Position numbers and translations under genes: made by a program. Source: Clostridia bacterium (GTDB taxonomy: Bacteria; Bacillota; Clostridia; Saccharofermentanales; Saccharofermentanaceae). Taken from it: a DNA stretch of 42,158 nt. The stretch is from NCBI GenBank assembly GCA_016281535.1, contig JAEEIT010000113.1, positions 1 to 42,158 of the forward strand, written 5' to 3'. Shown here one piece after another: positions 6,591 to 41,768 of the stretch (its first letter is position 1; each line of letters starts with the position of its first letter). The notes under the pieces were generated by a model. The model was given only the letters and a program-made list of their open reading frames with translations. It was not told where the DNA came from and made no database searches.

Positions 6591-6605
6591 CTGCTTATCA
6601 GAAAA

Positions 6606-6931
6606 ATGCGCTGACGGAGAAGAGTAGCGATTGGATGTCGTACAGGGCGTGTGGGCCGTTGATTGAGAGCCTGCATACGAAGAAAGATCAGACGAAGTTC
6701 ACTCCTGAGCAGATTTCCTGAACTCATGCGTTATGGAAGACCTTTAAGAAGGGCAGTAGCAATGAAAGTAGGGAAATACGGAGAGCCCACCGTTACCAGA
6801 GGGCAGAGGCTATCGGGCCTTGAAAGAGTGCGAGCGCTTCCCGAAGAAGGGGAAGACTCGAAAATGGGTGGTACCGCGAAGTAAGATATTTCGTCCCATT
6901 GCTGAAGGAAACGACGGCAATGGGATTTTTT
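6606..6931 (+). ncRNA. T-box leader, specifier UUC (tRNA-Phe)
   Basis: The invariant T-box TGGGTGGTACCGCG lies at 6865-6878 and pairs with CGTCCCA-type sequence (6892-6898) as antiterminator. The competing terminator is CCCATTGC (6895-6902) with GCAATGGG (6917-6924) followed by TTTTTT. Stem I begins with CTG..GGAG (6616-6619 arm), which pairs with CTCC (6702-6705) and a distal CAG. The loop E elements AGTA (5' side, near 6622) and GAA (6694-6696) frame the specifier loop. Reading GAA-G-TTC-A places TTC, a Phe codon, at 6698-6700. Transcription read-through into the gene should thus rise when tRNA-Phe is uncharged. The T-box call is certain; the specifier assignment is by eye. Confidence 0.93.
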
Positions 6932-6967
6932 GTTGCCGCCAACGGAGCGAAAGGCAGGTATTGGAAA

Positions 6968-8290
6968 ATGAGAAAAGAAGTGAACTCATGGATCTACGAT
7001 CCGAAGGCCGAATGTATGTCGGAGGATGAGCGCGCGAAGGTACAGAGCGAGCGATTGATCAAATGCGTGAACCGCATGTGGAACAATGTCCCGTACTATA
7101 GAAAGCGCATGGAAGAGAAGGGCGTCGAGCCGGGCGACATCAAGAGTGTTGCCGATCTTCCGAAGCTTCCATTCACGGATAAATTCGACTTCAGGGATAA
7201 CTATCCGTTCGGAACGCTGGCTGTGCCGAGACAGGAACTGGTCCGTGTACATGCTTCTTCCGGAACGACCGGTAAGATGAAGGTCGTCGGGTATACGGCG
7301 AATGACGTGAAGCTCTGGAACTCCGTTCTCTGCCGCTCGATGGCGAGATCTGGTGTGCAGAAGGGCGACCTTGTGCATATCGCGTACGGGTATGGACTCT
7401 TCACCGGTGGTCTGGGACCGCACTTCGCGTGTGCGGAACTGGGCGCGACGGCGATCCCGGTATCCGGTGGTAATACGGCAAGACAGATCACGATCCTGCG
7501 CGAGTGGAAGCCGGAAGTGCTGATGTGTACTCCGACATATGCCCTGCATATTGCGGACCAGCTGGAGCAGGCCGGCGTGGATAAGTCCGAACTGAACCTG
7601 CGCTGTGGTATTTTCGGCGCGGAGGCGTGGACACTGGAGATGCGTGACCAGATCGAGGAGAAACTGGGACTTCGTGCATTCGATATTTACGGTCTTACTG
7701 AGATCTGTGGTCCGGGTGTAGGATGCTCCTGTGATAAGTCTGATCTCATCCACATCGAGTCGGATCACTTCATCCCGGAGATCGTGGATCCGGAGACGGG
7801 CGAGGTGCTCCCGGACGGACAGCTCGGTGAACTGGTATTCTCTTCCATCTCGAAGGAAGGTGTACCGCTTCTGCGTTATAACACGCATGACCTGACGCGT
7901 CTTTACCACGGCAAGTGTGAGTGCGGACGTACCACACCGAAGATCGAGAAAGTAACCGGCCGTGCCGATGACATGATGATCATCCGTGGTGTAAACGTAT
8001 TCCCGTCCCAGATCGAAGCGGTACTTCTTGCGCACAGTGAGGTGGAACCGCATTATCTGATCTATCTCGACAGAAAGAACAATCTCGACCGCATGACCGT
8101 CAAGGTCGAGATGACACCGTCCTTCTTCTCCGACTCCATCCGTGAGATCGAGAATACGGAGAGAATGCTTGAAGGTGACATCGCTTCCATGACCGGTATC
8201 CATGCGAAGATCCAGCTGGTTGAGCCGAGGAGCCTGCCGAGGTCGGAGGGGAAGATGAAGAGGGTCATCGACGAGCGCTTCAGTAAATAA
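6968..8290 (+). CDS. paaK: Phenylacetate-CoA ligase family protein
   Basis: PaaK-type enzymes of the ANL superfamily activate phenylacetate or related aryl acids with ATP and CoA. The 440-residue length fits the family. Visible motifs are the AMP-binding loop ASSGTTGKMKVVGYT, IYGLTEICGPGVG, and the C-terminal hinge and lid around GRADDMMIIRGVNVFPSQIE. The ATG at 6968 was chosen because the protein then aligns with other PaaK N-termini (YDPKAECMSEDERAKVQSER), and because the open frame up to 6899 overlaps the T-box terminator. The ribosome binding site is weak (GGCAGG). A Phe-type T-box controls it, which suggests a role in making phenylalanine from phenylacetate rather than in degradation. 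No iorAB genes follow here. A hairpin terminator closes it. Confidence 0.9.
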   Translation: MRKEVNSWIYDPKAECMSEDERAKVQSERLIKCVNRMWNNVPYYRKRMEEKGVEPGDIKSVADLPKLPFTDKFDFRDNYPFGTLAVPRQELVRVHASSGTTGKMKVVGYTANDVKLWNSVLCRSMARSGVQKGDLVHIAYGYGLFTGGLGPHFACAELGATAIPVSGGNTARQITILREWKPEVLMCTPTYALHIADQLEQAGVDKSELNLRCGIFGAEAWTLEMRDQIEEKLGLRAFDIYGLTEICGPGVGCSCDKSDLIHIESDHFIPEIVDPETGEVLPDGQLGELVFSSISKEGVPLLRYNTHDLTRLYHGKCECGRTTPKIEKVTGRADDMMIIRGVNVFPSQIEAVLLAHSEVEPHYLIYLDRKNNLDRMTVKVEMTPSFFSDSIREIENTERMLEGDIASMTGIHAKIQLVEPRSLPRSEGKMKRVIDERFSK

Positions 8291-34179: not shown

Positions 34180-35373
34180 ATGAAGAATAAACGCTGGTTA
34201 AAACAGGCGAAGCTTCGGATCACGAAAGCATTTCGAAGGAAGAAGACTGATGACGCGATCGGCGGCAAAAGTCCTTATGTCGAACCGGACGGAGAATACG
34301 GTAAGGCAGAGGACCTGGCCCATGTGTGGTCGCTGGATAAGTCCGATTCCACCGTCGCAGAAGGTACGGACAAGCGCTGGCCGAAGATGGTACTGGCCGG
34401 AGGGATCTTCCTGTTCCTCATGTTCTTCGTATTCCTGATCCTGCCGAGAGTGCTGCCGGGATTCTTCAAGAACACGGATATCGCGCTCTTTATCGAGAAG
34501 ACACCGGTCCTGATCTATGACGATACCTACCGGGTCGTCAAGGTCAGCGCCAGCAGTGTCATGCGCGAAGACGACATCAAGAGTGAGCGGATCACCCAGC
34601 TTCTCATGAACGAACCGGTGCATTTCTTAAGCGACGACTGCAGGAACGGCTATGTGCTGATCCGAACGATGGACAATATCGTCGGATACGTCAAGAGCGA
34701 CGAGCTGAGCACGGACATGTCTTCCTGCGAGCCGGAACTGCATCTGTTTAAGATCGTCATCGCCGATATTTCGAAACGAGTCATGTCCCACGCCAGTAAC
34801 GGTACCCTGATCAGTGAAGTCGCCATGAATACGGTGCTCTATGCAGATGTGAAACGTGACGGTGTATACGAGGTACAGCTGCCGAACGGGGAGAAAGGAT
34901 GGATCTCCAGTAGTGGTGTCATCGAGCTGGACGTGAAAGAAGATACCGTCGAGGTCGGCGTCCGATACTTCGTCAGCTCCGCGAGAACCATGGTGAATGC
35001 GACCTATCTGGACGGAGGTCTTACGAAGCGCGGCATCTCTATGCAGGGCCTGGCCTACGTGGCCGCAGGCGTAAACGGTATCCCGATCCCCCGCGAACTG
35101 AAGGATCAGATCCGCGTCGGAACAGAAGTGCAGCTGGAGTACAATGCCGTCACATCGGAGCTTCTGATCGACAGCATCAAGCCGGGAGATCTGGTATTCC
35201 TTTCGGATCCGTACAAGCCGGGAAGTAAGGAGCCTTATGAGCTGGCGATCTGTACGGAAACAGGAGTCCTCCTGATGCGTGCGCAGACGGGAACATCGAT
35301 CCGCCTCCGCCGGTACGACGCCGATTCAGATGTGGTGGGACGGATCATCACGGTTCGGAGACTGTTCTCGTAG
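34180..35373 (+). CDS. SH3-domain membrane protein with inactive NlpC/P60-like domain
   Basis: The 397-residue protein has a basic N-terminus, one membrane segment (about 69-89), an extracytoplasmic SH3b-type region (about 95-250; the end of the second is GEKGWISSSGVIEL) and a C-terminal domain that aligns with NlpC/P60 endopeptidases: YLDGGLTKRGISMQGLAYVA, then VNGIPIPREL, then SIKPGDLVFL and ELAICTETGV. In active enzymes the first block reads DCSGF; here Cys is replaced by Met288 and Asp by Ser. The His of HVGIY is replaced by Glu354. So it should bind peptidoglycan without cutting it. It follows acpS by 3 bp. It is convergent with the reverse transcriptase gene, with a 26-bp overlap. Confidence 0.8.
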   Translation: MKNKRWLKQAKLRITKAFRRKKTDDAIGGKSPYVEPDGEYGKAEDLAHVWSLDKSDSTVAEGTDKRWPKMVLAGGIFLFLMFFVFLILPRVLPGFFKNTDIALFIEKTPVLIYDDTYRVVKVSASSVMREDDIKSERITQLLMNEPVHFLSDDCRNGYVLIRTMDNIVGYVKSDELSTDMSSCEPELHLFKIVIADISKRVMSHASNGTLISEVAMNTVLYADVKRDGVYEVQLPNGEKGWISSSGVIELDVKEDTVEVGVRYFVSSARTMVNATYLDGGLTKRGISMQGLAYVAAGVNGIPIPRELKDQIRVGTEVQLEYNAVTSELLIDSIKPGDLVFLSDPYKPGSKEPYELAICTETGVLLMRAQTGTSIRLRRYDADSDVVGRIITVRRLFS

Positions 35374-36613
35374 TATCCGCATCCGGACGTGATTCTTCGC
35401 TTCTTTCGATTTCTCTGGAAATATAGTACTCGTGTACGAGGCTTCGGAAGCCCATGACCTTGATGCTGTCATAGCTGATACGGTAGTTCCCCTTGAAATG
35501 ACGGCCGCGGTCCAGATAACGCACATATTCCAGAAAATACGCATCCAGTTCCCGGAGGCTTTTGTCCGTCGTGATGACAGGGAAGAACCACCGGCTCCAT
35601 GTGAAAAGATCCTCATTTCTTTCGTTATAGAGCTTCTTGTTAAATGTACGGATCAGGGCGCGGGCAGCGCGCTCGAAGGATGCATCGTTCTTCGTCTTCC
35701 ATCTAAGGAGAGCTCGTGACTTCCTGCGGATCTTTCCCTTCAGTTTCTCCTTCGTCACATCGGAGATATCCACCTGCCCGTCCCGATAACAGAAACCGAG
35801 GAATTCCCACGGTTCACCGGGGCAGGAAACAGAGACCTTCTTCGGGTTGATAGAAAGTCCCTTCTCTTCCACGATACGGTAGAAATCCCCCATATATAGA
35901 TCGAGTTCTTCCCGGGAACGGGCGAAGATGAGGATGTCGTCGGAGTAGCGGAAGTACGGGATGCCGCGCTTCTCGAAGTAGCGGTCCATCGACAGAAGAT
36001 ACACATTCGCGAAGAAGGGCGAGACCGGGATACCGGCCATGGCCCCCCGCTTCTCGGGAAGGACCGTCCCGTCAGGAAGACGGCTGTGCCCATCCGAAAG
36101 GAGCTCCGACAGAAACCAAAGAAGGTCCGGGTCATCGTCGATGATCCCGGAGAGGACTTCGATCAGAGCCTCTTCCGGGATGGAGTTAAAGTAATTCGAG
36201 ATATCGGCCTTAAAGCAGAAGAGCGAATCCCGTTCTTTCTGGGACAGGATATCGTAGATCGCATCTCTTGCCGAGCGCGTCCGCCGGAAAGAATAAAGCC
36301 GTGCAGAGAGCTTGCTGTCATAGCGGTAAAGCTGGAAAGAAAGCCCCTTAAGAAACAGATTCTCATCCTCGGAGAAAGTATAGACGACGCGTTTCTTATT
36401 CGTGCCGCTCTTATTGACGGTCCTTCTTTCCGGAAAACCGAAGAAGTAGCTTCGGTGTGAAAGAGCTTCAGCAACAGGGAGATACCTCCGTTCTTCCACG
36501 AAATCGGACAGTTCCTTCTTCTCGCGTTTCGAAAGATACTGATGTGAGAACTTATAGGAGAGAAACTCTTCCCAGGTTTCATGTTGAGAAAGAAGTGTTA
36601 AGATGCCGGTCAT
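35348..36613 (-). CDS. Stand-alone reverse transcriptase
   Basis: The 421-residue protein has the palm motifs of reverse transcriptases: FKADISNYFNSI (motif A, Asp137), RGAMAGIPVSPFFANVYL (residues 189-206, motif B) and RYSDDILIF (YSDD 223-226, motif C), then LSINPKKVS and EFLGFCY. The N-terminal block (about 50-115) includes KKRVVYTFSEDEN and LYSFRR. The C-terminal 130 residues are a thumb-like region; I see no group II maturase endonuclease (HNH) domain. It resembles proteins named reverse transcriptase/maturase family in gut Firmicutes. It lacks retron signs such as VTG, and uses YSDD instead of YADD. The start has AAGGGG 14 bp upstream. The leader (36614-36819) is highly structured. No effector gene is fused to it. 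Confidence 0.9.
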   Translation of the reverse strand: MTGILTLLSQHETWEEFLSYKFSHQYLSKREKKELSDFVEERRYLPVAEALSHRSYFFGFPERRTVNKSGTNKKRVVYTFSEDENLFLKGLSFQLYRYDSKLSARLYSFRRTRSARDAIYDILSQKERDSLFCFKADISNYFNSIPEEALIEVLSGIIDDDPDLLWFLSELLSDGHSRLPDGTVLPEKRGAMAGIPVSPFFANVYLLSMDRYFEKRGIPYFRYSDDILIFARSREELDLYMGDFYRIVEEKGLSINPKKVSVSCPGEPWEFLGFCYRDGQVDISDVTKEKLKGKIRRKSRALLRWKTKNDASFERAARALIRTFNKKLYNERNEDLFTWSRWFFPVITTDKSLRELDAYFLEYVRYLDRGRHFKGNYRISYDSIKVMGFRSLVHEYYISREIERSEESRPDADTTRTVSEP

Positions 36614-36644
36614 AAGAAATAAGCGGTCCCCTTATCCTTTCGAG

Positions 36645-36813
36645 ATATATAGAAAAAAGAAGAGAAACAGCTTTGAAACAAGCATTGCTTGTGTTACCGG
36701 ACCTGTACCCGCAGAAAGCCGCCTGCAAGGCCGGTCACACCGAGGCGTGACCCGTAATGAGCGGGCTTGATCCACCGCAGGCGCGAAACCGCATTTCTCT
36801 TCTTTTTATATAT
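36645..36813 (-). ncRNA. Structured leader of the reverse transcriptase gene, candidate ncRNA
   Basis: On the plus strand, 36654-36667 (AAAAAGAAGAGAAA) pairs with TTTCTCTTCTTTTT (36794-36807), plus ATATAT at each outer end. The ~125 nt inside hold several hairpins: ACAAGC/GCTTGT (36679-36693), GCCT/AGGC (36721-36731), TCAC/GTGA (36735-36750), CCCG/CGGG (36751-36764), and GTTACCGG with CCGGTCAC (7 of 8 pairs, 36694-36738). It ends about 30 nt before the start codon. TATATA at 36808-36813 may be a weak -10 on the minus strand. The alternative is a terminator-type hairpin for the upstream gene. No transcript is proven. Confidence 0.6.
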
Positions 36814-36819
36814 CGCTCA

Positions 36820-37284
36820 TCAGAGATACTGATGCAGACGATCGATGATGTAGCTCTCCTCATTCGGGGAATTGAGGAGGAAGTTGATGACCGTGACCCC
36901 TCTGGACTCGGCGAAAGCCCGCGCGAAGCGGTACGCTCTCGAGGAGCAGGTGTTGCGGTCCGGAAGCATGATGATCAGCTTCGGCTGACCGTTCGCGGAG
37001 ATCAGGTAGGCGTAGGGAAGAAGATACGTATCCGTTGCGCCCATCGATCTCGGATCGACATTCTTCTGAACCTGATAAGCAGAAAACTGCGTCGCGAGGA
37101 TCTTGTCCAGTTTCTGGTCAACAGGGATCTCGATCGGTTCCGGCGGAACCGGTGCGGAATAGCTCTGCGGCTGAGGCGCCGGAGATGTGGGTGTGCCGGA
37201 TGCGTGATTTCCGGTCATATTGTCGATAGCATTATTAATCGCTTTTTTGGCGGCATTTCCCAACAACCTGTCAAATAGTCCCAT
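36820..37284 (-). CDS. Unrecognised protein upstream of the RT leader
   Basis: A 154-residue protein. The N-terminus (GLFDRLLGNAAKKAINNAID) can be an amphipathic helix. A Pro/Ser/Gln-rich linker follows (about 28-48). The C-terminal domain (about 50-154) is alpha/beta, with PKLIIMLPDRNTCSSRAYRF, and ends with IIDRLHQYL. I do not recognise it. It has its own promoter (37324-37352) and AAAGGAGG ribosome binding site. It lies on the same strand as the reverse transcriptase, 206 bp upstream. Whether they form one system is open. Confidence 0.75.
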   Translation of the reverse strand: MGLFDRLLGNAAKKAINNAIDNMTGNHASGTPTSPAPQPQSYSAPVPPEPIEIPVDQKLDKILATQFSAYQVQKNVDPRSMGATDTYLLPYAYLISANGQPKLIIMLPDRNTCSSRAYRFARAFAESRGVTVINFLLNSPNEESYIIDRLHQYL

Positions 37285-37323: not shown

Positions 37324-37352
37324 TCTATAAAATGAGAATACCATAAAAACAA
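37324..37352 (-). promoter_or_regulatory. Probable promoter of the 154-residue protein gene
   Basis: Minus strand: TTGTTT (37352-37347), a 17-bp spacer and TATAGA (37329-37324). The ribosome binding site AAAGGAGG follows before the ATG at 37284. A small hairpin, TCCCTTGAAGGGA, is in the leader. Confidence 0.6.
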
Positions 37353-40394: not shown

Positions 40395-41768
40395 TTATCC
40401 GCGGGTCGCCCAGTCCGGGAATTCCTTGGAGAAGAAAATCTGCGGAAGCACAGAGAGAAAGTGCATATCCTCCTCGTTGATGGTAAAACCGAAGATATCC
40501 ATATTCTCTTTCATACGATCCTCGTGGGTGCTCTTCGGGATGATCTGGATGCCGGACTGGTTCAGGAACCGAAGAAGCAGCTGCGATACCGGACGTCCGT
40601 ACTGTTTCGCCATCTTCTGAAGACAGGGCTCTTCCGAGAAATACATCCTTCCCAGAGGGCTCCATGCCTGCGGAAGGATCCCGTGGGCACGGCAGAAGTC
40701 CAGTGTATACTGCTGCAGATACCCGACATGCAGCTCCAACTGATCCACCATCGGGACGATCTCGCAGTCTTCGAGAATGACATTCAGATGATGCGGCTGG
40801 AAGTTACATACACCGATCGCGCGGCACTTGCCTGCCTTATAGAGTTCTTCCATCGCCCGCCAGGTGTCGCGGATCTTCTGCCGCCACTGCATATCCTGCG
40901 GATTAAGCCTCGGCCAGTGGATCAGATACAGATCGATATAGTCCGTCCGGAGCTTATTTAAGGAACGGGCGAAAGCTTCCTTCGTCTCTTCGTATCCCAT
41001 CTCCGTCGGCCACATCTTCGTAGCCAGGAAGATCTCCTCGCGGGGGATCCCGCACTCCGTAAGGGCTTCTCCGATCGCTTCTTCATTTCTATAGAACGAG
41101 GCTGTATCCAAATACCTGTACCCACAGGCAAGCGCCCGCAGGATCGGTGTCTTTCCCTCGTCCAGCGTGGACTTATAGGTGCCGAATCCGACCGGAGGGA
41201 TCTCGATCCCGTTAGAAAGAACGAAGTTCTCCGCTTTCCCCGGTGTAGACAGCCGGTACATACTGACCGTTCTCTCGGCCCCGTCTTCCAGCATATGATC
41301 GATGCAATCTCTCTCGTAAACGAAACCCAGTTTCTTCATGACATTTCCGGAAGCGGTATTCCTGATATCATGGCGTCCACGGAACTGCGTCTGGTGAAGG
41401 GTATTCCTTCCGAAGTCGAGCATCGCACGGGCGGCCTCGGTCGCCAGGCCCTTACCCCACTGGGCTTTGGCAAAGTTATATCCGATCTCGAACATGCCGT
41501 CCTCGTCGTCATAGTAGATGCCACCGGATCCGATAAGATCCCCCGTCTCCTTCAGGACGAATCCCCAGTCGTAATCCGTATCACTATTCTCATTTGCAAC
41601 AACAGACTTCAGCCACTCTCTTGTGGTGTCCACGCTCTTGTGCGCATAGTAGCGCATATATTTCGCGACTTCCGGGTCCGACGCCCAGGTATCAAAAGCG
41701 GTCTGCGCATCGTCCATCGTCAGCGGCCGCAGGATCAGTCTCTCAGTCTCAATAACGGGGTTTTTCAT
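40395..41768 (-). CDS. GNAT acetyltransferase-aldo/keto reductase fusion
   Basis: The 457-residue protein joins two enzymes. Residues 1-175 are a GNAT N-acetyltransferase of the RimJ/RimL type: ETERLILRPLTMDDAQTAFD, the acetyl-CoA loop AQWGKGLATEAARAM, and NVMKKLGFVYERDC. Residues 182-457 are an aldo/keto reductase: GIEIPPVGFGTYKS at the start, YRYLDTASFYRNEEAIGEAL, ATKMWP, and YLIHWP. All four catalytic residues are present (Asp221, Tyr226, Lys251, His284). There is no stop or frameshift between them, and the junction is short. The start at 41768 has AAGGAGATC upstream; TATAAT (minus strand, 41804-41799) is a possible -10. The joint substrate is unknown. Confidence 0.9.
   Translation of the reverse strand: MKNPVIETERLILRPLTMDDAQTAFDTWASDPEVAKYMRYYAHKSVDTTREWLKSVVANENSDTDYDWGFVLKETGDLIGSGGIYYDDEDGMFEIGYNFAKAQWGKGLATEAARAMLDFGRNTLHQTQFRGRHDIRNTASGNVMKKLGFVYERDCIDHMLEDGAERTVSMYRLSTPGKAENFVLSNGIEIPPVGFGTYKSTLDEGKTPILRALACGYRYLDTASFYRNEEAIGEALTECGIPREEIFLATKMWPTEMGYEETKEAFARSLNKLRTDYIDLYLIHWPRLNPQDMQWRQKIRDTWRAMEELYKAGKCRAIGVCNFQPHHLNVILEDCEIVPMVDQLELHVGYLQQYTLDFCRAHGILPQAWSPLGRMYFSEEPCLQKMAKQYGRPVSQLLLRFLNQSGIQIIPKSTHEDRMKENMDIFGFTINEEDMHFLSVLPQIFFSKEFPDWATRG

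Follow-up and report, generated by a model that had tools for sequence, protein, structure and literature searches.

What is the role of a solitary reverse transcriptase gene on a clostridial chromosome when the DNA directly ahead of it could encode an elaborately folded RNA? The locus that raises this question lies in a stretch of 42,158 nucleotides (contig JAEEIT010000113.1, positions 1 to 42,158; assembly GCA_016281535.1, a Clostridia bacterium of the Saccharofermentanaceae), which we refer to as the window. It consists of a gene for a reverse transcriptase (RT) with a YSDD active site and a 206-nt leader, which a first-pass annotation, made from the letters alone, had taken for the possible RNA partner of the enzyme. 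Our analysis suggests that the locus is probably a chromosomal RT-non-coding RNA (ncRNA) system of class 2 of the UG/DRT type, with an RT of subgroup UG26, which probably produces templated complementary DNA (cDNA) and is possibly antiviral. The two principal parts, and the elements of the RNA, are as follows.

35348–36613, minus strand: UG26-type reverse transcriptase, 421 aa, YSDD active site (PADLOC, Pfam, translation).
36652–36807, minus strand: RT-5 ncRNA at its proposed full extent, comprising the closing stem, five more helices, the pseudoknot and the U-run (RF03026, model R1, covariation; ends predicted).
36794–36807, minus strand: P1 closing stem, 5′ strand, 14 nt (fold; helix 1 of alignment A7).
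36654–36667, minus strand: P1 closing stem, 3′ strand, running into the U-run as a terminator-like 3′ end (as for the 5′ strand; sequence).
36777–36782, minus strand: pseudoknot 5′ strand, GCCUGC (A7 count; window pairing read from sequence).
36721–36726, minus strand: pseudoknot 3′ strand, GCAGGC, in the P3 hairpin loop (A7 count; window pairing read from sequence).
36678–36692, minus strand: P4 hairpin, just 5′ of the candidate template loop (helix 7 of A7).

The RT reading frame is intact over its 421 residues, with YSDD at residues 223–226. It matches the PADLOC RT_UG26 profile with 517 bits over profile positions 3–396 of 398, the next PADLOC scores being 110 bits for a generic RT and 98 bits for UG27. 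Pfam recognises RVT_1 alone (residues 67–274) and neither a maturase nor an HNH domain, and the protein falls below every cut-off of the NCBIfam group II, Drt2, Drt3a, Drt4, Drt5 and retron models. VTG is the region-Y motif of retron RTs; in the translation of this RT the same region reads VTK. The first-pass annotation was thus right that the frame is complete and that both the maturase endonuclease domain and the retron VTG are missing, and the profile scores support membership of the UG (DRT) group, subgroup UG26, rather than of the retrons or group II maturases. An AlphaFold2 model (mean predicted local distance difference test score, 85.2) is closest among known structures to group II RTs (GsI-IIC, template-modelling (TM) score 0.70–0.74), followed by DRT9 (0.64) and DRT2 (0.52). 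The gene is under purifying selection, with a median ratio of non-synonymous to synonymous substitution rates (dN/dS) of 0.11 (16 of 190 pairs unsaturated). Two relatives in the sister genus g271 have one stop codon each inside the RT match (TAA in L029, TAG in L054), reflecting either decay or assembly error; both genomes (G406 and G407) also carry the RNA. The window's own genome holds a second, weaker RT match (G000:C150:3403-4059, locus L002), which scores 71.7 bits with the UG26 profile and has no RT-5 RNA within the 3.7 kb fetched.

The leader proved to be as structured as had been claimed: its 206 nt fold at -75.4 kcal/mol, and none of 200 dinucleotide shuffles is as stable (z -4.04). 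Positions 36786–36664 match the Rfam family RF03026 (RT-5 RNA) with 63.3 bits, above the gathering score of 45.7, which makes the window RNA a member. That family reportedly originates from Weinberg 2017; our literature search for RT-5 RNA or RF03026 found no paper. The Rfam model has 104 positions, does not include the closing stem as a pair, and carries no pseudoknot in the nested structure printed by cmscan. Our own model of the whole RNA (R1) matches 36809–36651 at 58.8 bits. The 14-bp closing stem described earlier is present, with 36807–36794 pairing with 36667–36654 around 126 nt, and the leaders of the window's genus and of g271 have in common a closing stem continuing into a U-run, although the stem sequences differ. 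The RNA would start at its stem and end at its U-run, and with these predicted ends it is about 155 nt long in the window and about 138 nt in relatives. Within the P2 loop, RNAs of the window's genus carry an extra hairpin-like stretch (36733–36753, minus strand, in the window) that g271 RNAs do not have.

Covariation supports this structure. In a first alignment of 44 RNAs (A1) the closing stem was out of register between the two genera, so g271 was modelled alone (A2, 23 RNAs) and the remaining RNAs were aligned by model; A7 comprises 37 model-aligned RNAs picked for diversity (the window's genus, g271 and other families) and leans towards the structure. In A2, whose structure consists of the closing stem, five nested helices and a pseudoknot, 95.0% of cells are paired. 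Double changes occur in 21 pairs (11.6 in shuffles) and 121 cells (30.8), levels reached by 0 of 500 shuffles, and sliding the structure along the alignment lowers the paired cells to 38–49%. In A7, 41 of 47 pairs show double changes (28.1 in shuffles; 0 of 500 reach this). Within that alignment 13 of the 14 P1 pairs show a double change in at least one sequence, with 96.0% of cells paired, and all eight P4 pairs do so, with 94.2% paired. The suspicion that the outer stem merely ends the transcript of the upstream gene is thereby answered against, since the stem covaries as part of the RNA. Five pairs of the pseudoknot were counted in A7, setting aside six of the 37 rows, the window's included, whose gaps in the pseudoknot columns reflect misalignment. 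Of the 155 cells that remain, 99.4% are paired, and double changes occur in 10 cells, compared with 1.8 for the shuffles, none of which (n = 500) reached that level; this count does not lean towards the structure because the pseudoknot is absent from the aligning model. Comparison thus shows, at the level of predicted pairing, that the ends of the RNA form a closing stem and that the pseudoknot ties the P3 loop to the 5′ part. The RNA of g268 and g270 genomes has diverged, and by eye L078 and L079 show CCUCC/GGAGG where others have CCUGC/GCAGG. The conserved block CTCCGGTATTGC stands 5′ of the RT in five of five g268/g270 loci.

The RNA and the RT also travel together. All 20 close relatives found among the species genomes searched have RT-5 immediately upstream of the RT. 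Across 115 genomes of the family (RT at E 1e-40; RNA at E 1e-3 with strict filters) we found the RT in 79 and the RNA in 74, with both in 73, the RT only in six, the RNA only in one and neither in 35, counts that are not independent events because the genomes are related. Among the six RT-only genomes, one (G490) has the RNA by locus search (57 bits), four show weak matches of 22–35 bits, and G402 gave no match in the locus search. A survey of 341 genomes of the class (RT at E 1e-50) returned the RT in 16, nine of them outside the family, and the RNA accompanies the RT in eight of the nine loci from other families (L111, L146–L152). RF03026 itself occurs in two of 398 genomes drawn from the phylum. 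The sole RNA-only genome is G422 (L154), in which no RT reaches the threshold; RT loss there is not shown, because the contig stops 7.2 kb past the RNA.

The position of the RNA relative to the RT is not fixed. With the RF03026 model and 1.5-kb flanks, RT-5 was found in nine of 27 g271 loci, and most of the others have the RNA farther off. In 23 of the 51 g271 genomes with the RT, the RNA lies within 300 nt of it; a further 24 have the RNA upstream at 1.2–9.5 kb, on the RT's strand, and four carry it on a different contig. In many loci opposite-strand genes intervene between the distant RNA and the RT. We inspected 14 detached RNAs, 13 of them from genomes with a distant RT and one from G422, and every one has a TATAAT box shortly before the closing stem. 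Since the RNA can be distant from the RT and carry its own TATAAT, it is, to judge by this arrangement, a separate gene that would act in trans. In a tree of 56 RT rows built by a quick method (which left out 12 g1 rows, L064, L093, L112, L113, L153 and rows without a frame longer than 300 aa), all 16 rows with a far RNA (for L097, on another contig) fall with three near rows into one starred clade. At least two changes in RNA position are required, and one separation followed by a return fits as well as two separations. The proposal that the leader is the RNA partner of the RT is thus borne out by the Rfam family, by covariation and by co-occurrence even at kilobase distances; the pairing of the two genes is shown by comparison, and the RT presumably binds the RNA. 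Naturally separated RNAs and RTs also offer ready pairs for trans-complementation.

A third component recurs at these loci and, in the window, lies directly upstream of the RNA.

36820–37284, minus strand: ORF154, a small companion protein whose fold is weakly PD-(D/E)XK-like (homologues, co-occurrence, fold).
37335–37343, minus strand: extended -10-like motif TGG-TATTCT, a possible promoter of ORF154-RNA-RT (read from sequence by eye).

In L073 and L074, two loci without ORF154, the same TGG-TATTCT motif stands directly 5′ of the RNA, and seven of eight inspected ORF154 loci, the window included, have no TATAAT between ORF154 and the RNA. An ORF154 profile iterated over the 4014 open reading frames of the fetched loci gathered 26 proteins (15 from the window's genus, seven from g271 and four from three other families). 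Of these, 25 lie on the same strand 31–296 nt upstream of the RT frame, and the 26th (L150) stands directly before the RNA with the RT at the contig end. In L111 the place of ORF154 is taken by a 223-aa protein that is likely, from its profile similarity, a remote relative (one hhalign comparison gave E 1.9e-6 with probability 89.6, and the profile search E 0.0074). ORF154 is present as a single copy in 41 of the 115 family genomes, and 40 of the 41 carry the RT; the sole exception is G451. Of the 24 genomes with a distant RNA, 10 carry ORF154 on the RT contig (8–20 kb downstream, in the opposite orientation), four have it on a separate contig, and 10 have none. Pfam gave no match to ORF154. 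Among 20 homologues, two weakly match the ependymin model (E 0.02), and no SLATT match was found in Pfam at E 0.1.

The predicted fold of ORF154, mostly confident over residues 55–154, weakly resembles VRR_NUC (4qbl, E 0.022, probability 0.95) and other PD-(D/E)XK proteins. The Foldseek search returned no match at E 0.001, and its top hit by E value is a retroviral intasome (0.018, probability 0.25). The catalytic D...(D/E)xK is not conserved in the divergent alignment A6, in which only M1, N141, Y145 and R149 are invariant. ORF154 is under purifying selection (median dN/dS 0.20; 40 of 105 pairs unsaturated). By its distribution it is a recurrent but not universal putative third part of the system, and it probably helps or regulates the RT-RNA complex.

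How such a system might work is suggested by better-studied relatives. According to passages of PMC12632851 and PMC13174585, class-2 UG RTs (DRT2, DRT9, DRT10, DRT3a) copy ncRNA templates into repetitive cDNA, and in DRT10 this depends on an A-B-A′ direct repeat and on a stable stem-loop immediately preceding the template (PMC12632851). By analogy, the RT would bind the RT-5 RNA and reverse transcribe a short stretch of it, the most likely template being the loop after the P4 hairpin, where we note the following element.

36664–36680, minus strand: candidate template UGUUUC-AAAGC-UGUUUC, an A-B-A′ direct repeat (hypothesis; modest enrichment across lineages).

The direct repeat would let the cDNA slip back for renewed extension, as in DRT10; the predicted product in the window would be repeats of GCTTTGAAACA. 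In the window, A overlaps the foot of P4 and A′ the top of P1. Comparable repeats occur in L161 (CGAUUU-AA-CGAUUU) and L147 (GGAUU-UAAU-GGAUU). One hand-chosen RNA per lineage (n = 24) was compared with halves swapped between lineages, in three tests whose p values are uncorrected: repeats of at least 5 nt occur in six of 24 (2.7 expected, p 0.027), and the mean length gives p 0.034. A shuffle test on 30 loops found repeats of at least 4 nt in 16 (7.1 expected) and of at least 3 nt in 28 (23.1), and a further test on 31 loops found repeats of at least 5 nt in 11 (4.5); the 24-lineage figure is fairer because these two tests count related rows. Helix P2b is likewise bracketed by a direct repeat, GUAC...GUAC, seen by eye, but we dropped this second template candidate because its middle part pairs and covaries.

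The closest parallel is DRT10 (UG17), described in the passages of PMC12632851 as an ncRNA, a SLATT protein and an RT, the ncRNA measuring 137 nt, in which a central stem is joined by four smaller stem-loops. Both systems would be tripartite. In DRT10 the template lies just after a stable stem-loop and carries an A-B-A′ repeat, an arrangement that the candidate template of the window may share. They differ in that the DRT10 ncRNA is upstream of the SLATT gene, whereas here ORF154 comes first and then the RNA, in that ORF154 is not SLATT by Pfam, and in that the separation of RNA and RT seen in g271 is unmentioned in those passages. The system also resembles DRT9 and DRT2 as a UG RT with a structured ncRNA as its presumed template, DRT9 being the best DRT match of the RT model, and the DRT2 ncRNA is likewise pseudoknotted (PMC12039810, in part). 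As those sources describe them in part, however, DRT9 copies a run of poly-U and DRT2 a template region of 120 nt, and by eye RT-5 has neither. The RNA family and the RT type have each been catalogued before; as far as the literature searched shows, what is added here is the closing stem together with the pseudoknot, the arrangement in trans, a protein partner and the genus-wide presence. A literature search found no functional study of UG26, and the present comparison ties an Rfam RNA without an assigned function to an RT subgroup that likewise lacks one, extends the RNA by its closing stem and pseudoknot, and adds a recurrent protein partner to a pair that can lie kilobases apart, pointing to action in trans.

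Several other explanations of the locus deserve consideration. RVT_1 and the fold do resemble group II RTs, but the remnant of a group II intron or a retron is scarcely credible here: the RT scores 108.5 bits with TIGR04416 (group II) against a cut-off of 300 and 49.5 bits with the retron model NF038233 against 235, region Y lacks VTG, and no group II or retron RNA family reaches its gathering score in the window, and we reject both. That the leader regulates the RT gene in cis, as an attenuator or riboswitch, would suit the window's genus, in which the closing stem ends 32–99 nt 5′ of the RT start, yet it is contradicted by the distant RNAs of g271, often with opposite-strand genes between and with promoter-like boxes of their own, and is very improbable. 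Alternatively, the RNA could be only a scaffold, activator or primer, with the loop no template and the RT making untemplated or protein-templated DNA, as class-1 UG RTs do for untemplated DNA in the passages of PMC13174585. The weak A-B-A′ signal and the position of A′ partly within P1 favour this view; the better-scoring UG models, however, include UG17, Drt9 and Drt3a, class 2 with RNA templates in the parts of the literature consulted, although UG27 and UG4 score higher, and we think it unlikely. A number of observations weigh against the templated class-2 system that we prefer. Membership of class 2 is deduced from profile scores near class-2 models, UG26 is not named in the passages of PMC12632851, PMC13174585 and PMC12483538, and the RT model aligns best with the structure of a group II intron RT. 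The enrichment of A-B-A′ repeats is modest (repeats of at least 4 nt in 13 of 24 lineages, p 0.09), several RNAs (L099, L092, L086, L089, L083) have repeats of 2 nt or less, and A′ overlaps paired bases of P1. Two of five pseudoknot measures are not clearly above shuffles (three pairs with double change, reached by 41 of 500, and five pair types, reached by 437 of 500). Five g268/g270 genomes with the RT carry a diverged RNA only, one of the nine out-of-family loci (L153) has no RNA, and 39 of the 79 genomes with the RT have no ORF154 at E 1e-6.

The remaining difficulty concerns function. The RT is present in 23 of 23 genomes of the window's genus (two of the hits being partial frames, in G497 and at contig ends) and occupies the same position in 22 of 22 loci, which is unusual for a defence gene. 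A defence-model search of the 13 neighbours in the window gave no match. With the RT present across the genus and no defence genes among these neighbours, a host function fits as well as defence. A domesticated RT, with the RT and RNA as core genes serving regulation or genome maintenance, for instance, is consistent with RT distances that track those of the flanking DnaB2 and SH3 genes (r 0.76 and 0.68, against 0.78 between SH3 and DnaB2). No close relative turned up in a scan of viral contigs or among plasmid and phage records, where all matches are below 60% identity (those listed, 24–31%), one phage record covering 81% of the RT query at 23.5%. On the other side, g271 has the RT in only 51 of 85 genomes and at several loci, the class survey returned it in 16 of 341, nine of them outside the family, the distance link to TrkH and TrkA is weaker (r 0.45 each), and UG26 has been reported in cold-seep viruses in a passage of PMC10504277; we hold domestication to be doubtful. 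A variant that we rate as quite unlikely combines these elements into a three-part, chromosomally fixed RT-RNA-protein complex, in which the pseudoknotted RNA, acting in trans, would template short tandem repeats by slippage in a telomerase-like manner, for a host function rather than, or besides, defence. For the class-2 RT-ncRNA system that we favour, antiviral defence would be the likeliest function by kinship, with a fixed host function possible. A UG RT found genus-wide at one housekeeping locus makes the idea that such RTs serve phage defence only a testable one.

That locus belongs to a 2.45 Mb genome in 201 contigs, whose close relatives are metagenome-built Clostridia, mostly named for ruminant gut samples. 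In all 22 fetched loci of the genus a convergent SH3-domain gene lies downstream of the RT, mostly followed by the AcpS, DnaI and DnaB genes. Upstream, an aldo/keto reductase gene is found in 20 of 22, the contigs of the other two ending before that point, and TrkA and TrkH in 16 of 22. L063, L064, L066, L072 and L073 have no trkA-trkH pair at the position held in the 16 other loci, and the flanking order is kept. In the window, a single frame (40395–41768, minus strand) fuses GNAT acetyltransferase and aldo/keto reductase domains, and it is a relative of this frame that lies upstream of the RT in the 20 loci. Farther away, a T-box leader (RF00230, 93.3 bits against a cut-off of 93) occupies 6602–6901 on the plus strand, directly 5′ of a phenylacetate-CoA-ligase-like gene (6899–8290).

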